From NCBI GenBank assembly GCA_014879565.1, contig JACSRW010000032.1, positions 310,001-374,000 of the forward strand: a stretch of 64,000 nucleotides of DNA, given 5' to 3'. Within the stretch, counting starts at the first letter, position 1. Every line of letters starts with the position of its first letter. Both the position numbers and the translations under genes were made by a program. The notes under the pieces were generated by a model. That model had not been told where the DNA came from. It made no database searches and worked only from the letters and a program-made list of their open reading frames with translations. The DNA comes from Chitinophagaceae bacterium (GTDB taxonomy: Bacteria; Bacteroidota; Bacteroidia; Chitinophagales; Chitinophagaceae). Positions 5,540 to 23,197 of this stretch are shown one piece after another.

Positions 5540-7048
5540 TCAGCCTGGCTGGTATAAAAGAGAGGCGTCTTTTGTCTCCAGTACAGAGCTGTTTTGGTTA
5601 TTCAGGAATTCATCCACTTTCCGGGCGGCTTCCCTTCCTTCGCTGATAGCCCATACAACCAGGCTTTGTCCGCGGCGCATATCACCGGCTACGAATATCT
5701 TTCCAATATTGGTCCGGAAGTCTTTTTCGCTGGCTTTTACATTGCCCCGTTCATCCAGTTCCACTCCCAGGTCGTTTAATAAACCCTGGTGCGAAGGATG
5801 TAAAAAGCCCATGGCCAGTAAGGCAAGCTGGCAGGGAATTTCTCTTTCTGAGCCGGGAACTTCGCTGAAATTCGCCGGCCGGCCTTCGGTAATCTTCCAT
5901 TCCAGATCAACAATCCGCAATGCTTTCAGCGCACCGTTCTCATCTCCGATAAACTCTTTGGTTGCAACAGCCCATTGGCGGTTGGCACCTTCTTCATGCG
6001 AAGTGGTGGTTTTTAGCAAAAGGGGATAAGTGGGCCAGGGCATAAATTCGTTTCTTTCCGCGGGTGGTTTCGGTAACAGTTCAAACTGGGTAACAGATAA
6101 TGCACCGTGCCGGTTAGAAGTACCCACACAATCGCTTCCGGTATCGCCTCCGCCGATCACCACGACATTTTTCCCGGTTGCCATCACTTCTTCAGCGAGG
6201 ATATTACTTTCAATTTGTCCGTATGCCAGGAAGTCTCTGCCGGCAACTCGTTTATTATTCTGCTTCAGGAAATCCATGGCGAAATACACTCCTTTCAGGT
6301 TCCGGCCCGGTATTGCCAGATCTCGGGGAACCGTGCTGCCACCTGCCAGCACCACCGCATTGTATTCACGCAGGATATCATTGATATGTACATTCACTCC
6401 CACATGGGCGTGACAGCGGAAAACCACTCCTTCTTCTTCCATCAGTTTTACCCTGCGGTCAACTACCCACTTCTCCAGTTTAAAATCAGGAATACCGTAA
6501 CGAAGTAACCCCCCGGGTTCTTCATCTCTTTCAAATACGGTTACCAGGTGCCCGGCGTAATTCAGTTGTGCGGCTGCGGCAAGACCTGCAGGCCCCGATC
6601 CGATCACCGCTACTTTTTTTCCGCTGCGCAGATTGGGTTTCCTGGGTTTGATCAGCCCTTTTTCAAAGGCGATCTCCACGATATGCTTTTCAATTTCCTC
6701 AATAGTGATCGCCGGCTGGTTAATTCCCAGCACACAGGCTGTTTCGCAGGGGGCCGGACAGATACGGCCGGTGAATTCAGGAAAATTGTTGGTGGAGCTG
6801 AGAATCGCCCAGGCTTCCGCCCAGTCTTTTTTATAAACCGCGTCATTAAATTCCGGGATCACATTTCCCAGCGGACATCCGTGGTGACAAAATGGAACGC
6901 CGCAATTCATACAACGAGCCGCCTGCTGATTCAGCTTTTCATCACTGTAGCGCTCAACAAATTCCCGGTAATGCTGCAGTCGCTGCGGTACCGGCTCTTT
7001 ACCCGGTAATTCCCGGCCGAATTCTTTAAATCCTGTTGGTTTGCCCAT
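5540..7048 (-). CDS. gltD: Glutamate synthase (NADPH), small subunit
   Basis: This 502-residue flavoprotein passes electrons from NAD(P)H through FAD and [4Fe-4S] clusters to GltB. Cysteine clusters are at Cys46, 49, 54, 58 (CMNCGVPFCHHGC) and Cys97, 101, 105 (CPAPCETAC). An FAD-binding GSGPAG lies at 150-155 and a second Rossmann GGGDTG (NADPH) at 299-304. I start at the ATG giving MGKPTGF, the usual GltD N-terminus; a TTG 12 nt upstream also opens the frame but adds residues the family lacks. It is 55 nt downstream of gltB and followed by a terminator. Confidence 0.95.
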   Translation of the reverse strand: MGKPTGFKEFGRELPGKEPVPQRLQHYREFVERYSDEKLNQQAARCMNCGVPFCHHGCPLGNVIPEFNDAVYKKDWAEAWAILSSTNNFPEFTGRICPAPCETACVLGINQPAITIEEIEKHIVEIAFEKGLIKPRKPNLRSGKKVAVIGSGPAGLAAAAQLNYAGHLVTVFERDEEPGGLLRYGIPDFKLEKWVVDRRVKLMEEEGVVFRCHAHVGVNVHINDILREYNAVVLAGGSTVPRDLAIPGRNLKGVYFAMDFLKQNNKRVAGRDFLAYGQIESNILAEEVMATGKNVVVIGGGDTGSDCVGTSNRHGALSVTQFELLPKPPAERNEFMPWPTYPLLLKTTTSHEEGANRQWAVATKEFIGDENGALKALRIVDLEWKITEGRPANFSEVPGSEREIPCQLALLAMGFLHPSHQGLLNDLGVELDERGNVKASEKDFRTNIGKIFVAGDMRRGQSLVVWAISEGREAARKVDEFLNNQNSSVLETKDASLLYQPG

Positions 7049-11754: not shown

Positions 11755-13008
11755 TCAGATCATATAGCCGAACAACTGGTCGTTTTTATTGATTTCAGAA
11801 AAGTCAATATGCGCGGCTTTCATTTTAGCGATCAGCAAATCGTAATCGGTCCGGCTCTGTAATTCGATACCTACGAGTGCCGGTCCGTTTTCTTTGTTGG
11901 TTTTCTGCATGTATTCAAACCGGGTGATATCATCTGAAGGTCCCAGTATGTTGTTTACAAACTCCCGGAGTGAACCCGGTCTTTGCGCAAAACTGATCAG
12001 GAAATAATGTTTGAGACCTTCATACTGCAGGCTTCTTTCTTTTATCTCCTGCATCCGGTCAATATCATTATTGCTCCCGCTGATAATGCATACCACAGTT
12101 TTCCCTTTGATTTCTTCCGCGTAATCATCCAGGGCGGCAACAGAAAGGGCCCCGGCGGGTTCCACCACAATGGCTTCTTCGTTATACAGCCTCAGGATGG
12201 TGCTGCAGACTTTTCCTTCCGGTACCAGGTGCATTTCGTCCAGCACTTCGCGGCAGATAGCGAATGTCTGATCACCCACTCTTTTTACAGCGGCCCCGTC
12301 TACAAAACGGTCAATACTGTTCAGTGTTACCGGCTGACCGGCTTTCAGCGCTTCCGACATGGAGGGCGCGCCTTCCGGTTCAAGGCCGATAATAGTTGTG
12401 CGCGGCGCACAGGTTTTGAAATACCTTCCGACTCCGGCACTCAGACCGCCTCCCCCCACAGGGATAAAAAGGTAATCCGGTTCGGCGATGTCTTCCAGGA
12501 TTTCCATACCGACCGTACCCTGCCCTTCAATGATCCGCAGATCATCGAAGGGCGGGATAAAGGTCATTTGATTTTCTTCTGTGAATTGTTTGGCGGCGAC
12601 CGCGCAATCATCAAAAGTGTCGCCCACCAGCCGGATGCTGATATTCTCTTCTCCGAACATCTGGGTCTGGGTGACTTTCTGCCGCGGTGTTATGATGGGC
12701 ATAAACACGACTCCTTGCACCCCCAGTCTGCGGCAACTGTACGCGAAGCCCTGTGCATGGTTTCCGGCGCTGGCACAAACCACTCCCTTTTTTAATTGTG
12801 CTTCCGGAAGTGAGCTCATCATATTGAAAGCACCGCGCAGTTTGTAGGAACGTACCACCTGCAGATCTTCTCTTTTGAGATACACAGTACACTGGTAACG
12901 GCGTGAAAGACCGGCGTTGTAGGTCAACGGGGTTCTGTTCACCACTTTTTTCAGGCGGTGACGGGCGGCTGCAAAATCCATACTGGGTATATTCGCGATT
13001 GATTCCAT
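11755..13008 (-). CDS. ilvA: Threonine ammonia-lyase (biosynthetic threonine dehydratase)
   Basis: This 417-residue PLP enzyme deaminates threonine to 2-oxobutanoate, the first step to isoleucine. The PLP lysine is Lys56 in SYKLRGAFN, and the glycine-rich phosphate-binding loop is PVGGGGLSAG. The C-terminal 90 residues (from about YEGLKHYFLISFAQRPGS) form a single ACT-like regulatory domain, as in the shorter biosynthetic enzymes such as Corynebacterium IlvA, whereas E. coli IlvA has two. That domain suggests isoleucine feedback, although family members differ. It follows ilvC by 15 nt. Confidence 0.93.
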   Translation of the reverse strand: MESIANIPSMDFAAARHRLKKVVNRTPLTYNAGLSRRYQCTVYLKREDLQVVRSYKLRGAFNMMSSLPEAQLKKGVVCASAGNHAQGFAYSCRRLGVQGVVFMPIITPRQKVTQTQMFGEENISIRLVGDTFDDCAVAAKQFTEENQMTFIPPFDDLRIIEGQGTVGMEILEDIAEPDYLFIPVGGGGLSAGVGRYFKTCAPRTTIIGLEPEGAPSMSEALKAGQPVTLNSIDRFVDGAAVKRVGDQTFAICREVLDEMHLVPEGKVCSTILRLYNEEAIVVEPAGALSVAALDDYAEEIKGKTVVCIISGSNNDIDRMQEIKERSLQYEGLKHYFLISFAQRPGSLREFVNNILGPSDDITRFEYMQKTNKENGPALVGIELQSRTDYDLLIAKMKAAHIDFSEINKNDQLFGYMI

Positions 13009-13023: not shown

Positions 13024-14142
13024 TTAGGATGATTGGGAGGCCAGTTTACTGAAGATTTCTTTGGTAGATGTTGCCGGAACGGGAGCAGCGGCGCGGGACT
13101 GGTTTTCCGGACGGAGACTCCGTACGGTCCGGCCAGCCTGCCAGATTTCGCTTTCACGAAGCTCTTTCAGCTCTGCTTCCAGTTTTTCGCGGTAGTCGGG
13201 CTTACTGTTACTGTCAATGGATCGTTGAGATTCTTTACCGGTAGCCACGCTGTCATAAAGTTCATTGAACACAGGCAGGGTAGCATCCCTGAACTTTTTC
13301 CACCAGTCAAGAGCGCCGCGTTGTGCAGTGGTGGAACAATTGGCATACATCCAGTCCATGCCATTTTCTGCTACCAGTGGCATAAGAGATTGGGTCAGTT
13401 CTTCCACCGTTTCATTAAAGGCTTCCGAAGGAGAATGTCCCCTGTCGCGCAGCACCTGGTACTGAGCGGCGAAAATACCCTGGATGGCGCCCATCAGGGT
13501 GCCTCTTTCACCGGTCAGATCTGAGTAAACTTCTTTTTTAAAATCGGTTTCAAACAGGTAGCCACTGCCTACGGCGATACCCAGGGCAATAACACGGTCA
13601 AAGGCCCGGCCCGTTGCATCCTGGTAAATGGCATAGGAACTGTTCAGGCCCCGTCCCTGGAGGAACATACGGCGCAGGGAGGTGCCGGATCCCTTGGGCG
13701 CAACCAGGAAAACATCCACATCTTTGGGCGGGACAATTCCGGTTTGCTCATTGAACGTGATGCCAAAACCATGGGAGAAATAAAGGGCTTTGCCCGGGGT
13801 AAGGTGCTTCTGTACAGTGGGCCAGAGCGCAATCTGCGCCGCATCACTCAGCAGGTAACAGATGATTGTTCCCCGCTGCAGGGCTTCTTCTATTTCAAAC
13901 AGGGTTTCGCCGGGTACAAATCCGTCGGCCACCGCTTTGTCCCAGGTTTTGGAATTCTTCCGCTGACCTACAATTACATTAATGCCATTATCTTTCTGGT
14001 TCAGCGCCTGTCCGGGACCCTGTACGCCATAACCTATAACGGCTACAGTTTCATTTTTCAGGACTTCCTGTGCTTTACTCAGAGGGAATTCTTCCCGGGT
14101 GACCACGTTTTCTTCAACGCCGCCGAAATTTAATTTTGCCAT
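13024..14142 (-). CDS. ilvC: Ketol-acid reductoisomerase (NADP+)
   Basis: This 372-residue enzyme isomerises and reduces 2-acetolactate or 2-aceto-2-hydroxybutanoate to the dihydroxy acids of valine and isoleucine synthesis. The Rossmann motif GYGVQG is at residues 37-42, followed by GQRKNSKTW in the cofactor-specificity loop and the acidic metal-binding segment DLTGERGTLMGAIQG. The last 35 residues (RSLRPENQSRAAAPVPATS onward) are low-complexity and beyond the catalytic core. I start at MAKLNFGG; the frame is open 52 codons further upstream, but those residues read through the ilvN-ilvC gap and the end of ilvN and are not IlvC-like. It lies 49 nt from ilvN. Confidence 0.94.
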   Translation of the reverse strand: MAKLNFGGVEENVVTREEFPLSKAQEVLKNETVAVIGYGVQGPGQALNQKDNGINVIVGQRKNSKTWDKAVADGFVPGETLFEIEEALQRGTIICYLLSDAAQIALWPTVQKHLTPGKALYFSHGFGITFNEQTGIVPPKDVDVFLVAPKGSGTSLRRMFLQGRGLNSSYAIYQDATGRAFDRVIALGIAVGSGYLFETDFKKEVYSDLTGERGTLMGAIQGIFAAQYQVLRDRGHSPSEAFNETVEELTQSLMPLVAENGMDWMYANCSTTAQRGALDWWKKFRDATLPVFNELYDSVATGKESQRSIDSNSKPDYREKLEAELKELRESEIWQAGRTVRSLRPENQSRAAAPVPATSTKEIFSKLASQSS

Positions 14143-14191
14143 GTTTATCTGTTTTTTAAAAGGTTGAGAGTATATTGTTGAGAGTTGAGGT

Positions 14192-14785
14192 TTACATGGT
14201 GAATACTTCTTCGTTTTTATCAAGAAATTCATTCTCGATAGCTTCTTCACCCGGTTCCATTTTTTCAAATTCCTTAAGCCGGTCATGAAAGCCGGCACTG
14301 GCCTTGATGATCGCTACCCGGGCACTGCGTACGAATTCAATTAATCCGTAAGGTTCGAGTACTTTGATCAGGGAATCAGTTTCTTCCCGGTGTCCGGCCG
14401 CGGCAAAAACAGTATAATCCTTCCGGATCACCACCGTATGGGCGCCGTTTTCCCGGAGCAGTCTTTCCACTTTTACAGAGGAGGCAATCACATCGGTAGG
14501 TACTTTATAAAGGGCCATTTCCTGCCAGATTATCTCCTCTTCGGTATTGTAATAGGCTTTCAGTACCTCCACCTGTTTTTCAATCTGCCGGCAGAGTTTG
14601 CGTACCACGTCCTCATACTCATTGATCACAATGGTAAACCGATGTACACTTTCTACTTCTGTGGGAGATGTATTCAGGCTTTCTATATTTATTTTCCGCC
14701 GGGAAAAAATAATGGCGATTCGATTCAGCAGTCCTACCTGGTTTTCGGTGTAGACCGTGATGGTGTATTCTTTTTTCGGTTGCAT
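14192..14785 (-). CDS. ilvN: Acetolactate synthase, small regulatory subunit
   Basis: This 197-residue protein has an N-terminal ACT domain (YTITVYTENQVGLLNRIAII, residues 7-26) and the family C-terminal domain (near EFVRSARVAIIKAS). It binds the catalytic subunit IlvB, raises its activity and carries the valine feedback site. It is slightly longer than the E. coli IlvH type because of a charged tail. It starts 20 nt after the ilvB stop, as expected for a stoichiometric partner. Confidence 0.93.
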   Translation of the reverse strand: MQPKKEYTITVYTENQVGLLNRIAIIFSRRKINIESLNTSPTEVESVHRFTIVINEYEDVVRKLCRQIEKQVEVLKAYYNTEEEIIWQEMALYKVPTDVIASSVKVERLLRENGAHTVVIRKDYTVFAAAGHREETDSLIKVLEPYGLIEFVRSARVAIIKASAGFHDRLKEFEKMEPGEEAIENEFLDKNEEVFTM

Positions 14786-14805: not shown

Positions 14806-16554
14806 TTAAATATCTTCTTTACACAATACAATCTCCGCTACTCCTCTTCCCTGCGGTACCATCGGGAATACATTGTTTTCTTTGCCCACCATCACTTCCA
14901 GTAACCGGCATCCTTTGCTGCTGATCAGTTCACTAACAGCCTGTTTCAGCTCTTCTCTTTTACTTACACTGCGTCCGGGGATACCGAAACCTTTGGCGAC
15001 CTGTACAAAATCGGGGCTCTGAATATCCACAAAAGAGTACCTCTTTTCATGGAAGAGCTGCTGCCATTGCCGCACCATGCCAAGGAAATTATTGTTCAGG
15101 ATCAGGAGTTTTACATCGGGCTGAAACTGCATGATCGTGCCAAGTTCCTGCAGGGTCATCTGGAAACCACCATCTCCGATAACCGCTACCACGGTTCGTT
15201 CCGGTGCCCCGAAATGGGCGCCGATAGCAGCCGGCAGGGCAAATCCCATGGTACCCAGACCGCCGCTGGTGATATTGCTTTTGCTTTGTTTGAATGTAGC
15301 ATAGCGGCAGGCCACCATCTGATGCTGGCCTACATCCGTCACGATGACGGCTTCGCCGTTTGTTAATTCATTGAGGGTGCGGATCACTTCACCCATGGTA
15401 AGCACAGGACTTTCAGGATAGAGTTCATCCTGCATTACTTTCTCTTTTTCTTTCTGTTCATAGTCCCTGAACAGCTGAATCCATTGCGGATAAACTTTTT
15501 GTTCCAGCAGCTGGGTGAGCAGGGGCAGGGTTTCCTTACAATCGCCCCATACCGGTACATCAGCTTTTACATTTTTGTCAATCTCAGCGGGGTCAATATC
15601 AAGGTGAATAACTTTTGCCTGTTTGGCATATTTATCCAGACGGCCGGTTACCCGGTCGTCAAACCGCATGCCAACGGCAATAAGCACATCACATTCATTG
15701 GTGAGTACGTTCGGGCCATAATTGCCGTGCATGCCCAGCATACCCATGGCCAGCGGATGTTCGGTAGGGATGGCACTCATTCCCATGATGGTCCAGGCAG
15801 CCGGTAACCCGCCTTTTTCTATAAAGCGGATGAATTCTTTTTCAGCCTGTCCGAGAATAACCCCCTGTCCAAAAATGACAAATGGTTTTTTTGCATTATT
15901 GATCAGCGCTGCCGCCTCTTCCAGGTATTCTTTCCGGATGATGGGTTTTGGCCGGTAACTCCGGATATGGGTACATTGCTGATAAGGCGCAGCAGAGAAA
16001 AGCTGCAGCTGTGCGTTTTTGGTGATATCTACCAGCACGGGTCCCGGGCGGCCGCTGTTGGCAATATAAAAAGCCTTGGCCAGTACATGCGGAATTTCGT
16101 GTGCCTCGGTAACCTGGTAGTTCCATTTGGTAACCGGGGTGGTGATGTTGATAACATCTGTCTCCTGGAAAGCATCCGTTCCCAGCAGATGGGCGAATAC
16201 CTGGCCAGTAATGCAGACTACCGGGGTGGAATCAATCATAGCATCGGCCAGTCCGGTTACGAGGTTGGTGGCTCCGGGTCCGCTGGTGGCGAAAACAACA
16301 CCGGTGCGGCCGCTAACTCTTGCATAGCCCTGAGCGGCATGAATGGCACCCTGTTCATGGCGGACCAGGATATGTTTCAACCGGTCATGGTAATCATACA
16401 GGGCATCATAAATGGGCATGATGGCGCCGCCGGGATATCCGAAGATGGTGTCCACCTTTTCAGCAATCAGGGCTTCCAATACAGCCTGGCTGCCGCTCAT
16501 TTCTATAACGGGTGCCTGAATGGCTGCATCTTGGGGTTTTGCAAGCGTTTCCAT
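14806..16554 (-). CDS. ilvB: Acetolactate synthase, large catalytic subunit
   Basis: This 582-residue TPP- and FAD-dependent enzyme condenses pyruvate with pyruvate or 2-oxobutanoate. The catalytic Glu67 is in VRHEQGAIHAAQG, and the C-terminal TPP/Mg motif runs from GDGGFQMTLQEL to NNNFLGMVRQW. An N-terminal extension of about 18 residues precedes the conserved MSGSQAVLEAL. It lies in the ilv run 45 nt from ilvD and 20 nt from its regulatory subunit. Confidence 0.95.
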   Translation of the reverse strand: METLAKPQDAAIQAPVIEMSGSQAVLEALIAEKVDTIFGYPGGAIMPIYDALYDYHDRLKHILVRHEQGAIHAAQGYARVSGRTGVVFATSGPGATNLVTGLADAMIDSTPVVCITGQVFAHLLGTDAFQETDVINITTPVTKWNYQVTEAHEIPHVLAKAFYIANSGRPGPVLVDITKNAQLQLFSAAPYQQCTHIRSYRPKPIIRKEYLEEAAALINNAKKPFVIFGQGVILGQAEKEFIRFIEKGGLPAAWTIMGMSAIPTEHPLAMGMLGMHGNYGPNVLTNECDVLIAVGMRFDDRVTGRLDKYAKQAKVIHLDIDPAEIDKNVKADVPVWGDCKETLPLLTQLLEQKVYPQWIQLFRDYEQKEKEKVMQDELYPESPVLTMGEVIRTLNELTNGEAVIVTDVGQHQMVACRYATFKQSKSNITSGGLGTMGFALPAAIGAHFGAPERTVVAVIGDGGFQMTLQELGTIMQFQPDVKLLILNNNFLGMVRQWQQLFHEKRYSFVDIQSPDFVQVAKGFGIPGRSVSKREELKQAVSELISSKGCRLLEVMVGKENNVFPMVPQGRGVAEIVLCKEDI

Positions 16555-16599: not shown

Positions 16600-18288
16600 T
16601 TACAGGTCTTCATCCGTAACACAACCCTGATCTGCTGGTTTTACTGTTTTGGCATATTTATAGAGTATGCCTTTGCTGGCTTTCAGGGCCGGTTGACGCC
16701 AGCTTTTCTTTCTTTCCGCTATTTCCTCCTCACTCACTTTCAGGGTTAAGGTATTTTTCACGGCATCAATTTCAATCCGGTCTTCATCTTTTACCAGCGC
16801 AATCAGTCCGCCATCAAAGGCTTCCGGGGTGATATGTCCCACCACAAAACCATGTGTACCCCCGCTGAAACGGCCGTCGGTAATCAGGGCAACTGATTTA
16901 CCAAGACCGGCGCCGATGATAGCACCGGTTGGCTTCAGCATCTCCGGCATTCCCGGTGCGCCCCTGGGGCCGATATAACGGATGACAACCACATCTCCGG
17001 CTTTTACTTTGCCATTGGCAATTCCTTCAATAAAATCTTTCTCCCCGTCAAACACACGTGCGGTACCTTCAAACCGTTCTCCTTCCTTTCCGCTGATTTT
17101 TGCCACACTGCCTCTTTCCGCCAGGTTACCATACAGGATCTGCAGGTGACCGGTTTTTTTGAGGGGTTGTTCCAGCGGACAGATGATTTGCTGTTTGCTG
17201 AAATCAAGTTCCGGTGCGCTCTCCAGGTTTTCGGCCACCGTTTTGCCGGTTACCGTCATACAATCGCCGTGCAGTAAACCTTTTTGAAGCAGGTATTTCA
17301 TCACTGCCGGTACCCCGCCAATACGGTGCAGGTCTTCCATCAGGTATTTGCCGGAAGGTTTGAAGTCGGCCAGTACCGGCACCCGGTTACTGATTTGCTG
17401 GAAGTCATCAGGTGTAAGGATCAGGCCAACGCTGCGGGACATGGCAACCAGATGAAGGACCGCATTGGTGCTGCCGCCAAGCACCATAATTACGGTGATG
17501 GCATTTTCAAAAGCTTTGCGGGTCATGATATCTGAAGGACGGATATTCTTTTCCAGCAGCAATTTTATGGCGGCACCGGCCGCTTCACATTCCCGCTGTT
17601 TATCATCACTGAGTGCCGGGTTGGAAGAGGAATAGGGGAGGCTCATCCCCAGGGCTTCAATAGCAGAGGCCATGGTATTGGCTGTGTACATACCGCCGCA
17701 GGCACCGGCACCGGGACAAGCGTGTTGTACAATTCCTTTAAAGTCGCCCTCACTGAGTGTACCGGCAATTTTTTGCCCCAGCGCTTCAAATGCGCTGACG
17801 ATATTCAGGTCTTCCCCTTTGTAATGACCGGGGGCAATCGTTCCGCCATAGAGCATGAGAGAAGGCCTGTTCAGCCGACCCATAGCCATGATGGCACCGG
17901 GCATGTTTTTATCACAACCGGGTATGGCAATCAGCCCGTCATAATACTGAGCGCCGGCATTGGTTTCAATACTGTCCGCGATTACATCGCGGCTTACCAG
18001 GCTGTACCGCATGCCGTCTGTTCCCATACTGATACCATCGCTTACCCCAATGGTGTAAAAACGCAAACCCAGTAACCCTTCCGTCCGGTTCACACTGTCA
18101 CGCACCCGGGTGGCGAGGTCGTTGAGATGCATATTACAGGGATTACCATCCCAGCCCATGCTTACAATGCCAACCTGGGCTTTGCTGAAATCTTCTTCTT
18201 TAAACCCGATGGCATAATACATTGCCTGGGCCGCCGGTTGGGTGGGGTCCTGTGTCAGGGTCCGGGAATGTCTGTTTAATTCACACAT
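16600..18288 (-). CDS. ilvD: Dihydroxy-acid dehydratase
   Basis: This 562-residue Fe-S dehydratase makes 2-oxoisovalerate and 2-oxo-3-methylvalerate. Likely cluster ligands are Cys51 (GNPCNMH), Cys125 (PGCDKNMPG) and Cys197 ([14 protein letters not shown]). The length is normal for the 560-residue class. It is the first ilv gene after the attenuator, with the start 78 nt beyond the terminator hairpin's T run, so its transcription should depend on read-through. The N-terminus [15 protein letters not shown] is typical. Confidence 0.95.
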
Positions 18289-18365: not shown

Positions 18366-18400
18366 TTAAAAAAAGAAACCCGCCTTTCGGGAGGCGGGTT
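18366..18400 (-). terminator. Attenuator terminator upstream of ilvD
   Basis: On the minus strand AACCCGCCT (18400-18392) pairs perfectly with AGGCGGGTT (18385-18377) across CCCGAA, followed directly by TCTTTTTTT. It lies between the Ile/Val leader peptide and ilvD. Part of its 5' arm can pair instead with the end of the leader coding region (see the antiterminator entry). Confidence 0.9.
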
Positions 18401-18441
18401 GCGTATTTTGTTTTTTTATAACCGTATTACACACCACCTCC
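18390..18441 (-). promoter_or_regulatory. Antiterminator pairing of the ilv attenuator
   Basis: Minus-strand GGAGGTGG (plus positions 18441-18434, leader codons 28-30) is complementary over 8 bp, with one G-U pair, to CCGCCTCC (18397-18390), which contains most of the terminator's 5' arm. The two pairings exclude each other. A ribosome stalled on the Ile/Val codons would leave GGAGGTGG free and prevent termination; one reaching the leader stop would cover it and allow termination. Confidence 0.75.
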
Positions 18442-18522
18442 TGCTGAAGGAATAATAATAATCACCACCACAATAATAATTGCGGACAAAGCAGTGATAT
18501 TATGTAAATAGTTCTTCAGCAT
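18427..18522 (-). CDS. ilv operon leader peptide (Ile/Val-rich attenuator peptide)
   Basis: This 31-residue ORF, ATG at 18522 and TAA at 18427-18429, is too short for ordinary gene callers. It encodes MLKNYLHNITALSA, then IIIVVVIIII (codons 15-24), then PSAGGGV. Ten consecutive Ile/Val codons directly upstream of an intrinsic terminator and ilvD are the hallmark of ribosome-mediated attenuation by charged tRNA-Ile and tRNA-Val. Three Leu codons occur near the start. About 20 nt upstream is TATATTTA, a weak match to the -7 box, which would give a short leader transcript. The peptide is not expected to have a function beyond being translated. Confidence 0.88.
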   Translation of the reverse strand: MLKNYLHNITALSAIIIVVVIIIIPSAGGGV

Positions 18523-18618
18523 GAAGGATGTAGTATGGTAAATATACACCCGCCGTTTCAATAAAAGAACTCAGCAAGCAATAATTATTTCAGAAAGGGA
18601 CGAACCCTCGTTTGTTTT

Positions 18619-19734
18619 TCAGATGATCGTTGACTTCCTTAATTCAATATTCTCTGTATTGACGGAGCCGGAAATTTTTCCGCTGACAAAGTCGCTGATC
18701 AGTTCTCCGATGGTGGACGTGAAATAAAAATTCACCGGATCAATATCTTTTGTGACAAAGGAATTAAGCAGGGTCCAGTTTACAGCGTCTCTGACCAGTT
18801 GCCCCTCTTCCTTCAATCCGAGATGATCGAGGAGCATAGCCGCGGAAAGTATTGAGCCGATGGGATTGGCAATATCTTTTCCCGCAGCCTGCGGATAGGA
18901 GCCATGAATAGGTTCAAACAGGGCCGCACCTGTTCCGATAGAGGCAGAAGGCAGTAAACCAAGGGATCCGCTTATCACACTGGCTTCATCACTGAGAATA
19001 TCTCCAAACATATTTTCCGTCAGGATTACGTCAAACTGTTTCGGGTTGACGATAATCTGCATGGCGGCATTGTCCACAAACATATAATCCACGCTGACTT
19101 CCGGGTATTCTCCGGCGGTCTCCTGCACCACCCTGCGCCATAGACGGGATGTTTCCAGTACATTGGCTTTATCCACCAAAGTCAGTTTCTTTTTCCGTAA
19201 CATGGCCTGTTCAAAAGCGAGCCGGGTTATCCGGGCAATTTCTTCCCGGTTATAGGTACATTCGTCCATGGCCTGCGCGCCGTCTGTGCTGGTTTCTTTT
19301 TTCCCGAAATAAATACCCCCTGTGAGTTCACGGAAAATGACAAAGTCAACTCCCTCAATTTGTTTGCTTTTAAGCGGAGAAAGATGAAAGAGAGAGGAGT
19401 AAGTACTCACCGGACGGATATTGGCAAAAAGCTGAAGCGATTTACGCAGTTTCAGCAAGCCCTGTTCGGGTCTGACTTTAGCCGAAGGATCATTGTCGTA
19501 CCTGGGGTGGCCGATAGCGCCAAAAAGAATGGCATCGCTGTTCAGGCAGGTTTCAATGGTTTCGTCGGGCAGGGGACTGCCGGTCTTGTCAATGGCGTCA
19601 GCGCCCATCATACAATAGTTGTATTCAAATTCATGTTTGAATGATTCGGCAACCGCATTCAGAACACGGATCGCCTGTCGGGTAACTTCGGGACCAATAC
19701 CATCCCCTTCTATTACGGCTATTTTCTTTTTCAT
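18619..19734 (-). CDS. leuB: 3-isopropylmalate dehydrogenase
   Basis: This 371-residue NAD+-dependent enzyme oxidatively decarboxylates 3-isopropylmalate. It has the family N-terminus KIAVIEGDGIGPEVT, the substrate-binding segment VDFVIFRELTGGIYFG and the metal/NAD region ENMFGDILSDEASVISGSLGLLPSAS followed by EPIHGSYPQAAGKDIANP. Its start is 2 nt from the leuD stop. The 330 nt after its stop hold the ilv attenuator. Confidence 0.95.
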   Translation of the reverse strand: MKKKIAVIEGDGIGPEVTRQAIRVLNAVAESFKHEFEYNYCMMGADAIDKTGSPLPDETIETCLNSDAILFGAIGHPRYDNDPSAKVRPEQGLLKLRKSLQLFANIRPVSTYSSLFHLSPLKSKQIEGVDFVIFRELTGGIYFGKKETSTDGAQAMDECTYNREEIARITRLAFEQAMLRKKKLTLVDKANVLETSRLWRRVVQETAGEYPEVSVDYMFVDNAAMQIIVNPKQFDVILTENMFGDILSDEASVISGSLGLLPSASIGTGAALFEPIHGSYPQAAGKDIANPIGSILSAAMLLDHLGLKEEGQLVRDAVNWTLLNSFVTKDIDPVNFYFTSTIGELISDFVSGKISGSVNTENIELRKSTII

Positions 19735-21799: not shown

Positions 21800-21879
21800 T
21801 TGCCGGAAACCTTTTCCGTAGTGTTTTGTGTGATAAAAACAAAAGCAGACATTATTGGTCTGCTTCTGAAAAATACAGT

Positions 21880-23049: not shown

Positions 23050-23080
23050 AATTAATTGATAAATTGAGGGATATAAAAAT

Positions 23081-23134
23081 GCAGGCTGCTTATTTTTGTA
23101 TTGCTTGCTATAAAAAATTGAATAAACAGCCTGC
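23081..23134 (-). terminator. Terminator-like hairpin in the leuA leader
   Basis: On the minus strand GCAGGCTGTTTATT (23134-23121) pairs with AATAAGCAGCCTGC (23094-23081), 14 bp with one U-G pair and a 26-nt loop, followed by ATTTTTAT. It ends 31 nt before the leuA start. An upstream GGCCTGC (23164-23158) could pair with the 5' arm instead and prevent the hairpin. Confidence 0.6.
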
Positions 23135-23197
23135 GGTGATAAAATTACCGACGGTAAGCAGGCCGGTAAAAACAAAATAGGGTCCGGATTACAGCTT

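Follow-up and report, generated by a model that had tools for sequence, protein, structure and literature searches.

In the window, the whole 64,000-nucleotide stretch of DNA analyzed here, the interval between leuB and ilvD most probably (probability about 0.9) holds a ribosome-mediated transcription attenuator that would sense the charging of isoleucine and valine tRNAs and control ilvDBNCA. This sequence-based reading, put forward in the initial annotation, is supported by a conserved run of Ile/Val codons, a terminator and an antiterminator, which stand before ilvE or ilvD and after leuB. The anatomy of the element, its conservation, its mutually exclusive pairings and their geometry were all established by computation. 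What emerges appears to be a complete amino-acid attenuator kept in many members of one Bacteroidota family; as far as the accessible parts of the relevant papers go, such switches in Bacteroidota have so far only been sketched (PMC9723704, PMC7366714, PMC2864571).

The gene order given earlier, leuA-leuC-leuD-leuB-[leader]-ilvD-ilvB-ilvN-ilvC-ilvA-gltB, agrees with the NCBIfam matches for the ten genes submitted. In the direction of transcription, the features are as follows.

18619..19734, minus strand: leuB, last gene of the upstream leu run (NCBIfam TIGR00169)
18564..18571, minus strand: AGTTCTTT, a -33-like promoter element (sequence; motif scan of relatives)
18539..18546, minus strand: TATATTTA, a -7-like element, one base off TAnnTTTG (sequence position)
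18514..18532, minus strand: region 1, the predicted protector, comprising the transcript start, the leader start codon and the next codons (MFE folds)
18427..18522, minus strand: leader peptide ORF, 31 codons plus stop (ORF translation; similar leaders in relatives)
18451..18480, minus strand: ten control codons, Ile3 Val3 Ile4, codons 15-24 (sequence, translation, run counts)
18434..18441, minus strand: region 2, GGAGGTGG, antiterminator 5' arm, Gly codons 28-30 (pairing and fold)
18390..18398, minus strand: region 3, CCCGCCTCC, antiterminator 3' arm and terminator 5' arm (pairing and fold)
18377..18384, minus strand: region 4, GGCGGGTT, terminator 3' arm (terminator scan, fold, alignment)
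18366..18376, minus strand: U-rich tract of the terminator (sequence and terminator scan)
16600..18288, minus strand: ilvD, first structural gene past the attenuator (NCBIfam TIGR00110)
14806..16554, minus strand: ilvB (NCBIfam TIGR00118)
14192..14785, minus strand: ilvN (NCBIfam TIGR00119)
13024..14298, minus strand: ilvC (NCBIfam TIGR00465)
11755..13008, minus strand: ilvA, threonine ammonia-lyase (NCBIfam TIGR02079)

Sequence and translation confirm the 31-codon ORF with ten consecutive Ile/Val codons (III VVV IIII) that had been described on the minus strand, and the peptide reads MLKNYLHNITALSAIIIVVVIIIIPSAGGGV (window 18522-18427). The ORF is rich in codons for the end products, with ten Ile/Val codons ahead of ilvD in the window and a run in 88 leaders of relatives. 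Runs of seven RTN codons give four overlapping matches in the window, all within the leader run, where 0.09 would be expected, and the pattern III-VVV-III occurs once in the 3.4-Mb assembly (none for the reversed-pattern control). The 173-nt leader RNA folds with a z of -5.2, with none of 200 shuffles equally stable. The leader attenuator of the window is not a chance arrangement, a conclusion for which we weigh the comparative evidence above these single-window statistics. Among the Ile control codons ATT predominates (429 of 502, compared with 115 of 299 Ile codons in seven window genes); either tRNA or RNA pairing could lie behind this preference.

The terminator stem (18400-18377, minus strand) starts 26 nt past the leader stop, is G+C-rich with 9 pairs and ends in the tail TCTTTTTTTA. 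It is the 9-bp intrinsic terminator with a U-rich tail already noted from the sequence, and it was listed first among the minus-strand candidates between positions 6900 and 23400. The scan over that range was not enriched (21 candidates compared with 21.6 in shuffles), so that alone it constitutes no evidence. The 8-bp complementarity that had been reported between GGAGGTGG (18441-18434) and CCGCCTCC (18397-18390) does exist, but it is made of 7 Watson-Crick pairs and one U-G wobble, and in the fold the window antiterminator extends to 14 pairs with a 2-nt bulge. Without the terminator 3' arm this 14-pair hairpin has -20.2 kcal/mol, and the terminator in a 56-nt piece has -15.9 kcal/mol. With the 5' side removed and before region 4 has been made, the pairing of region 2 with region 3 (2:3) forms at a mean probability of 0.97 across the family leaders, whereas at equilibrium with region 4 present, again with the 5' side removed, the means are 0.81 for the terminator and 0.18 for 2:3. 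Because the terminator outcompetes 2:3 at equilibrium, the antitermination decision must be a kinetic one. In the full untranslated transcript, the pairing of region 1 with region 2 (1:2; 0.73) and the terminator (0.92) coexist.

To compare leaders, tblastn was run with the leader peptide over 294 genomes of the same family, which we infer to be the Chitinophagaceae, giving matches at E up to 1 in 123. The 90 best places were taken, and a script found the leader in 88 of them; the two dropped were L077, where no leader was found and whose genome (G067) has neither a match to the covariance model described below nor ilvD, and L105, at a contig end, whose genome (G246) does have a model match. 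L071 and L109 were further excluded from the 5'-segment duplex test (n = 86) and L109 from alignment A2 and the promoter scan (n = 87), and the start positions of L040 and L071 were set by hand for the peptide counts. The leader start of L071 is ATA where that of its close relative L065 is ATG, so that translation of L071 may begin elsewhere or the leader may not function. As the leaders were chosen by peptide similarity, conservation of the peptide is partly by construction.

Each of the 88 leaders has a hairpin with four or more T among the eight bases after it, and in each the leader tail can pair with the terminator arm over uninterrupted stretches of 5-12 pairs, at a mean duplex energy of -17.3 kcal/mol (the weakest of the 88 being -10.7 kcal/mol). 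In the MAFFT alignment A1 the 8-pair antiterminator helix is paired in 95.5% of cells, compared with 41.9-61.9% when the partner is slid by 1-3 columns, and in 82 of 88 leaders its upper extension (GTAT/ATAC and variants) scores higher than shuffled flanks do on average. Covariation in the antiterminator is thin because its columns hardly vary: one pair shows double changes, in 2 sequences, shuffled columns also pair at 95.2%, and the number of double-change pairs is reached in 47 of 500 shuffles and the covariation score in 0 of 500. The terminator is paired in 98.3% of cells with 21 double-change cells, a level that none of 500 shuffles reaches, and L093 and L100 show joint changes in the leader and in the two arms of the terminator. 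The comparison with relatives that the initial annotation proposed as its check shows that the run of Ile/Val codons, the terminator and the pairing potential of the antiterminator are all kept (leader and terminator in 88 of 90 loci), with compensatory base pairs that are clear in the terminator but confined to 2 cells in the antiterminator.

We infer the following course of events, from promoter use and ribosome stalling to the direction of the response and the part played by the protector. RNA polymerase would start at a promoter between leuB and the leader, and a ribosome would translate the leader during its transcription. When Ile or Val is scarce, this ribosome would stall within codons 15-24 and leave region 2 (GGAGGUGG) unoccupied, so that region 2 could pair with region 3, no terminator would form and the ilv genes would be read. 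With both amino acids plentiful, the ribosome would reach the stop codon and mask region 2, whereupon region 3 would pair with region 4 and transcription would end before ilvD. Were the leader left untranslated, its 5' end including the AUG would pair with region 2 and the terminator would again form.

The spacing of the elements suits such a scheme, assuming an E. coli-like ribosome footprint. In the window, placing any of codons 15-23 in the A site leaves the whole of region 2 accessible; of its 8 nt, 5 are free at codon 24, 2 at codon 25 and none at codon 26 or later. Region 2 stays free at 819 of the 830 control codons of 87 leaders, 75 of which have 12 nt between the run and region 2. Under a strict footprint, a ribosome that has reached the stop codon extends over the first base of region 2 in only 53 of 87 leaders, and in the rest about one base sticks out. 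Counted from the AUG, the run of hydrophobic residues (I, V, L, M, A) begins after 10-16 codons, most often 14 (41 of 88).

The initial annotation saw no convincing 1:2 pairing, a view that the folds do not bear out. In the window the 5' end and the start codon (UACAUCCUUC.UGCUGAAG) are paired with the leader tail, region 1 pairing in the MFE fold with region 2 and the rest of that tail, and the duplex of 5' segment and tail has -26.1 kcal/mol, compared with a mean of -15.6 kcal/mol with swapped tails. Among relatives the 5' segment with its own tail has a mean of -18.9 kcal/mol, better than with swapped tails (-15.7 kcal/mol) in 71 of 86 and better than with dinucleotide shuffles (-11.7 kcal/mol) in 85 of 86. 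Region 2 is paired with the 5' segment at p > 0.5 in 74 of 87 leaders, and the leader AUG is paired at p > 0.5 in 73 of 87. When the 5' segment is swapped, mean pairing of region 2 falls from 0.71 to 0.52, and the own segment gives the higher value in 72 of 87, a count uncorrected for relatedness. A 1:2 protector is therefore predicted at the extreme 5' end, including the leader AUG, a position that would seem unusual.

A less likely alternative is an attenuator with no functional protector, where antitermination would be the default whenever the leader is not translated and the pairing of the 5' end would be incidental. RNAalifold finds no consensus structure on the full-leader alignment A2, hence no column consensus for the protector and no shared leader hairpin (on the tail alignment it finds the terminator alone), and the per-sequence swap and shuffle tests were used in its place; in 9 of the 87 leaders the probability of pairing between region 2 and the 5' end is below 0.25, and the swap tests carry the relatedness caveat given above. 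However, folding of the leader RNAs (n = 87) is more stable than that of dinucleotide shuffles (mean z -2.5) and also than that of sequences in which synonymous codons were permuted without altering the peptide (mean z -1.9), and the preference of region 2 for its own 5' end over swapped ones stands against an incidental pairing. More tentatively, the protector may make the leader self-closing, its 5' end locking the translation start as well as protecting region 2. Only a stalled ribosome together with a second one queued on the AUG would then free region 2, and the 10-16-codon offset of the run would be room for just one queued ribosome. We consider this two-ribosome gate rather doubtful; if true, it would make for a form of attenuation whose control codons lie clear of region 1. 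Initiation in the Bacteroidota phylum proceeds largely without Shine-Dalgarno pairing, and the leader has no evident Shine-Dalgarno sequence. The predicted protector that contains the start codon poses the question of how attenuation would work without overlap of region 1 and control codons and without a Shine-Dalgarno sequence.

The attenuator reading itself has to be set against three accounts of another kind. That the terminator just ends the leu transcript, with the ORF encoding a functional hydrophobic membrane micropeptide unrelated to attenuation, is very improbable: the Ile/Val stretch is membrane-like and the terminator does lie after leuB, but the 88 peptides contain 721 Ile, 440 Val, 172 Leu and 42 Phe, although a membrane span could use any of these residues. 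The complementarity of leader tail and terminator arm in all 88, the promoter-like motif upstream of both leader and terminator, and the company of ilvE or ilvD, without which (where ilvD is missing) the leader is mostly missing too, likewise speak against it. Sensing of tRNA or of a ligand is common in amino-acid operons of this kind, and a T-box, riboswitch or protein-bound leader could in principle be the sensor with the ORF secondary. This has slighter odds still, as no Rfam family matches at gathering score anywhere in the window, for which T-boxes and the other families were rejected as candidates, and no T-box is among the 17 weak Rfam matches around the leader. Just as slim is the chance that leader translation affects translation of ilvD through reinitiation or coupling. 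Leader ORFs may act in this way, at preferred distances of about 10-14 bp according to the accessible part of PMC4833913, but the leader stop here lies 138 nt before the ilvD start, with the terminator between them.

Promoters of Bacteroidota are of the -33/-7 type, with the -7 consensus TAnnTTTG, and the motif upstream of the leader resembles one. All 87 leaders scanned have AG[TCA]TCTTT in the 100 nt that precede their ATG, compared with a shuffled mean of 0.8. Within 45 nt upstream, TAnnTTTG is present in 23 and TAnnTTCG in 39 of the 87, and a stricter -7 pattern in 45 of 87 compared with 8.9 in shuffles. Transcription would probably start near 18534, some 10-15 nt ahead of the leader ATG. 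Since the conserved promoter-like motif lies just upstream of the leader, control of ilv separate from leu becomes more likely, and the ilv genes could be expressed separately from leu as had been suggested. At L109, AGTTCTTT is absent from the 75 nt inspected upstream of the leader.

The distribution of the element was followed with a covariance model (R1), taking matches at E up to 0.001, and ilvD was called by TIGR00110 at E up to 1e-100. R1 matches 161 of the 294 family genomes and ilvD is found in 197, with both in 157, R1 only in 4, ilvD only in 40 and neither in 93. Where both places are listed, 113 of 117 R1 matches share the strand of ilvD and precede it by at most 3 kb, in 39 cases by less than 500 nt; the four matches not near ilvD include those of G045 (L109), G055 and G154, and the last two, among the weakest scores, are probably false. 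Eighteen of 20 inspected genomes with ilvD but no R1 match (of the 40) have no leader-type ORF with an Ile/Val run in about 1.7 kb upstream of ilvD; of the other two, L309 has an ORF that resembles a leader, though a divergent one, with a hairpin after it, and L311 is an unlikely candidate. The attenuator is common in the family, not universal.

In the genus of the window, 18 of the 19 ilvD genomes searched score at least 44 bits and none of the other 22 reaches 36, while the nineteenth ilvD genome (G024) has a 30.7-bit match at the expected place. An absence of the element within the genus, suggested by the 420 nt upstream of ilvD, was rejected, as the element lies about 1 kb further up, before ilvE. 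As a side observation, no ilvD orthologue turned up in 22 of the 42 genus members (many of these 22 genomes measure 1.5-2.6 Mb, and one has only a 36%-identical relative), which suggests that branched-chain amino-acid synthesis is missing in about half of it.

The main downstream ORF, taken as the longest beginning within 900 nt, is ilvE-like in 60 of the 88 leaders (the ilvE reference being an Aminotran_4 protein), ilvD in 27 and an ACT_5 gene in one. This last is L109 (G045), where leader and terminator stand ahead of a 98-residue ACT_5 protein, plausibly the acetolactate synthase small subunit, with ilvD some 0.5 Mb away. Upstream, all 30 loci whose sequence reaches far enough (L030-L059, L030 being the window) have leuB ahead of the leader. 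Seventeen same-genus genomes besides that of the window have a model match of at least 44 bits about 1 kb upstream of ilvD, and ilvE adjoins ilvD in 19 of 19 same-genus ilvD loci tested. The window genome has no close ilvE (best 30% identity), and hence the attenuator stands directly ahead of ilvD there; the switch would have been retained while ilvE was lost.

Outside the family, R1 gave two matches among 248 genomes of the order, both at 40-43 bits, and ten among 395 genomes of the phylum, at 40.8-44.8 bits. These weak matches (40-45 bits) were not counted as members, and 11 of the loci were inspected. In L292 and L293 we saw Ile-rich leaders and a hairpin with a T run, next to an ilvE-like gene, and in L297-L299 short Ile-rich ORFs with hairpins, all in Bacteroidota; in L291 no leader was seen. 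Some of the out-of-family loci resemble attenuators, either independent or distant ones. L294, L295 and perhaps L290 have short ORFs with runs of His codons near hairpins and are candidate his attenuators of Bacteroidota. A pattern scan of named genomes, used for names and not for counts, gave among the matches listed many Chitinophagaceae records together with evident chance matches (Streptomyces, Micromonospora and others), and a search of plasmids gave no match.

The switch would be of a classic type, and no Rfam family matches its Chitinophagaceae version at gathering score. Around the leader the weak Rfam matches include attenuator leaders (Thr 22.0, Phe 20.1 and Trp 19.5 bits, with cut-offs of 55, 55 and 41) as well as unrelated RNAs. 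Enterobacterial ilvGMEDA and ilvB are preceded by leader-peptide attenuators that share with the window a leader of end-product codons, mutually exclusive antiterminator and terminator, and a place before branched-chain amino-acid genes. In contrast to these, the window leader belongs to a different phylum, has a promoter motif of another type and has its predicted protector at the 5' terminus, over the AUG. Vitreschak and colleagues (2004) are said to mention attenuators in Bacteroidetes. Bacteroid-trp (RF01692), a trp attenuator, is unmatched in the window and absent from the 17 weak matches. It is in Table 1 of PMC2864571 and is, in the part of that paper available, like the present element a candidate cis-regulatory RNA of Bacteroidetes.

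The accessible text of several other papers bears on the comparison. Actinobacterial ilvB leaders also combine a leader peptide with a terminator upstream of ilvB (PMC1262725; see also PMC11857589 and PMC10272879), but in another phylum and with a first gene other than the ilvD of the window. The same source describes complementary triples of segments in trp attenuators, and reports that attenuator components are often missing and that mutated control codons of Streptomyces ilvB were without effect (PMC1262725). In 2010, leader-peptide systems were known only from Proteobacteria and Actinobacteria, to which Firmicutes were then added, according to the available part of PMC2965389. For Bacteroidota, clues for leader-peptide attenuation upstream of amino-acid biosynthesis operons, as in the window, are given for Flavobacterium psychrophilum (PMC9723704), and short ORFs reminiscent of leader peptides for Bacteroides (PMC7366714), both in the accessible portions of these papers. 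Our literature search, which ran without most subscription papers, met no title or abstract start describing the attenuator, and absence from print is not claimed.

Other elements were seen nearby and in relatives. Upstream of leuA, at 23051-23190 of the window (minus strand), a 14-pair hairpin (GCAGGCTGTTTATT / AATAAGCAGCCTGC) with a long loop is followed by ATTTTTAT (z -3.5). Similar arms occur in ten loci including that of the window (L327-L336), some with changed arms or loop inserts; no Leu-rich leader was seen there by eye, and the hairpin may be another cis-regulatory RNA. Between leuA and leuC, a terminator-like hairpin of 11 pairs with a TTTTT tail (21840-21868, minus strand) may partly separate leuA from leuCDB.

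A dispersed motif, GTGCGACGCAA-N(0-14)-GATGATAGTA, lies just before ilvD in L013 (G001), with variants in L011, L012, L016 and L022. Exact copies number 16 in G001, 13 in G003, 4 in G012, 20 in G026, and 2 each in G027 and G028, with none in the genome of the window and three others of the ten searched and none for the reversed control. In L008 and L018, a CCCC/GGGG palindromic repeat stands just before the aligned part of IlvD; possibly in frame, it resembles a small repeat inserted close to the N-terminus of IlvD.
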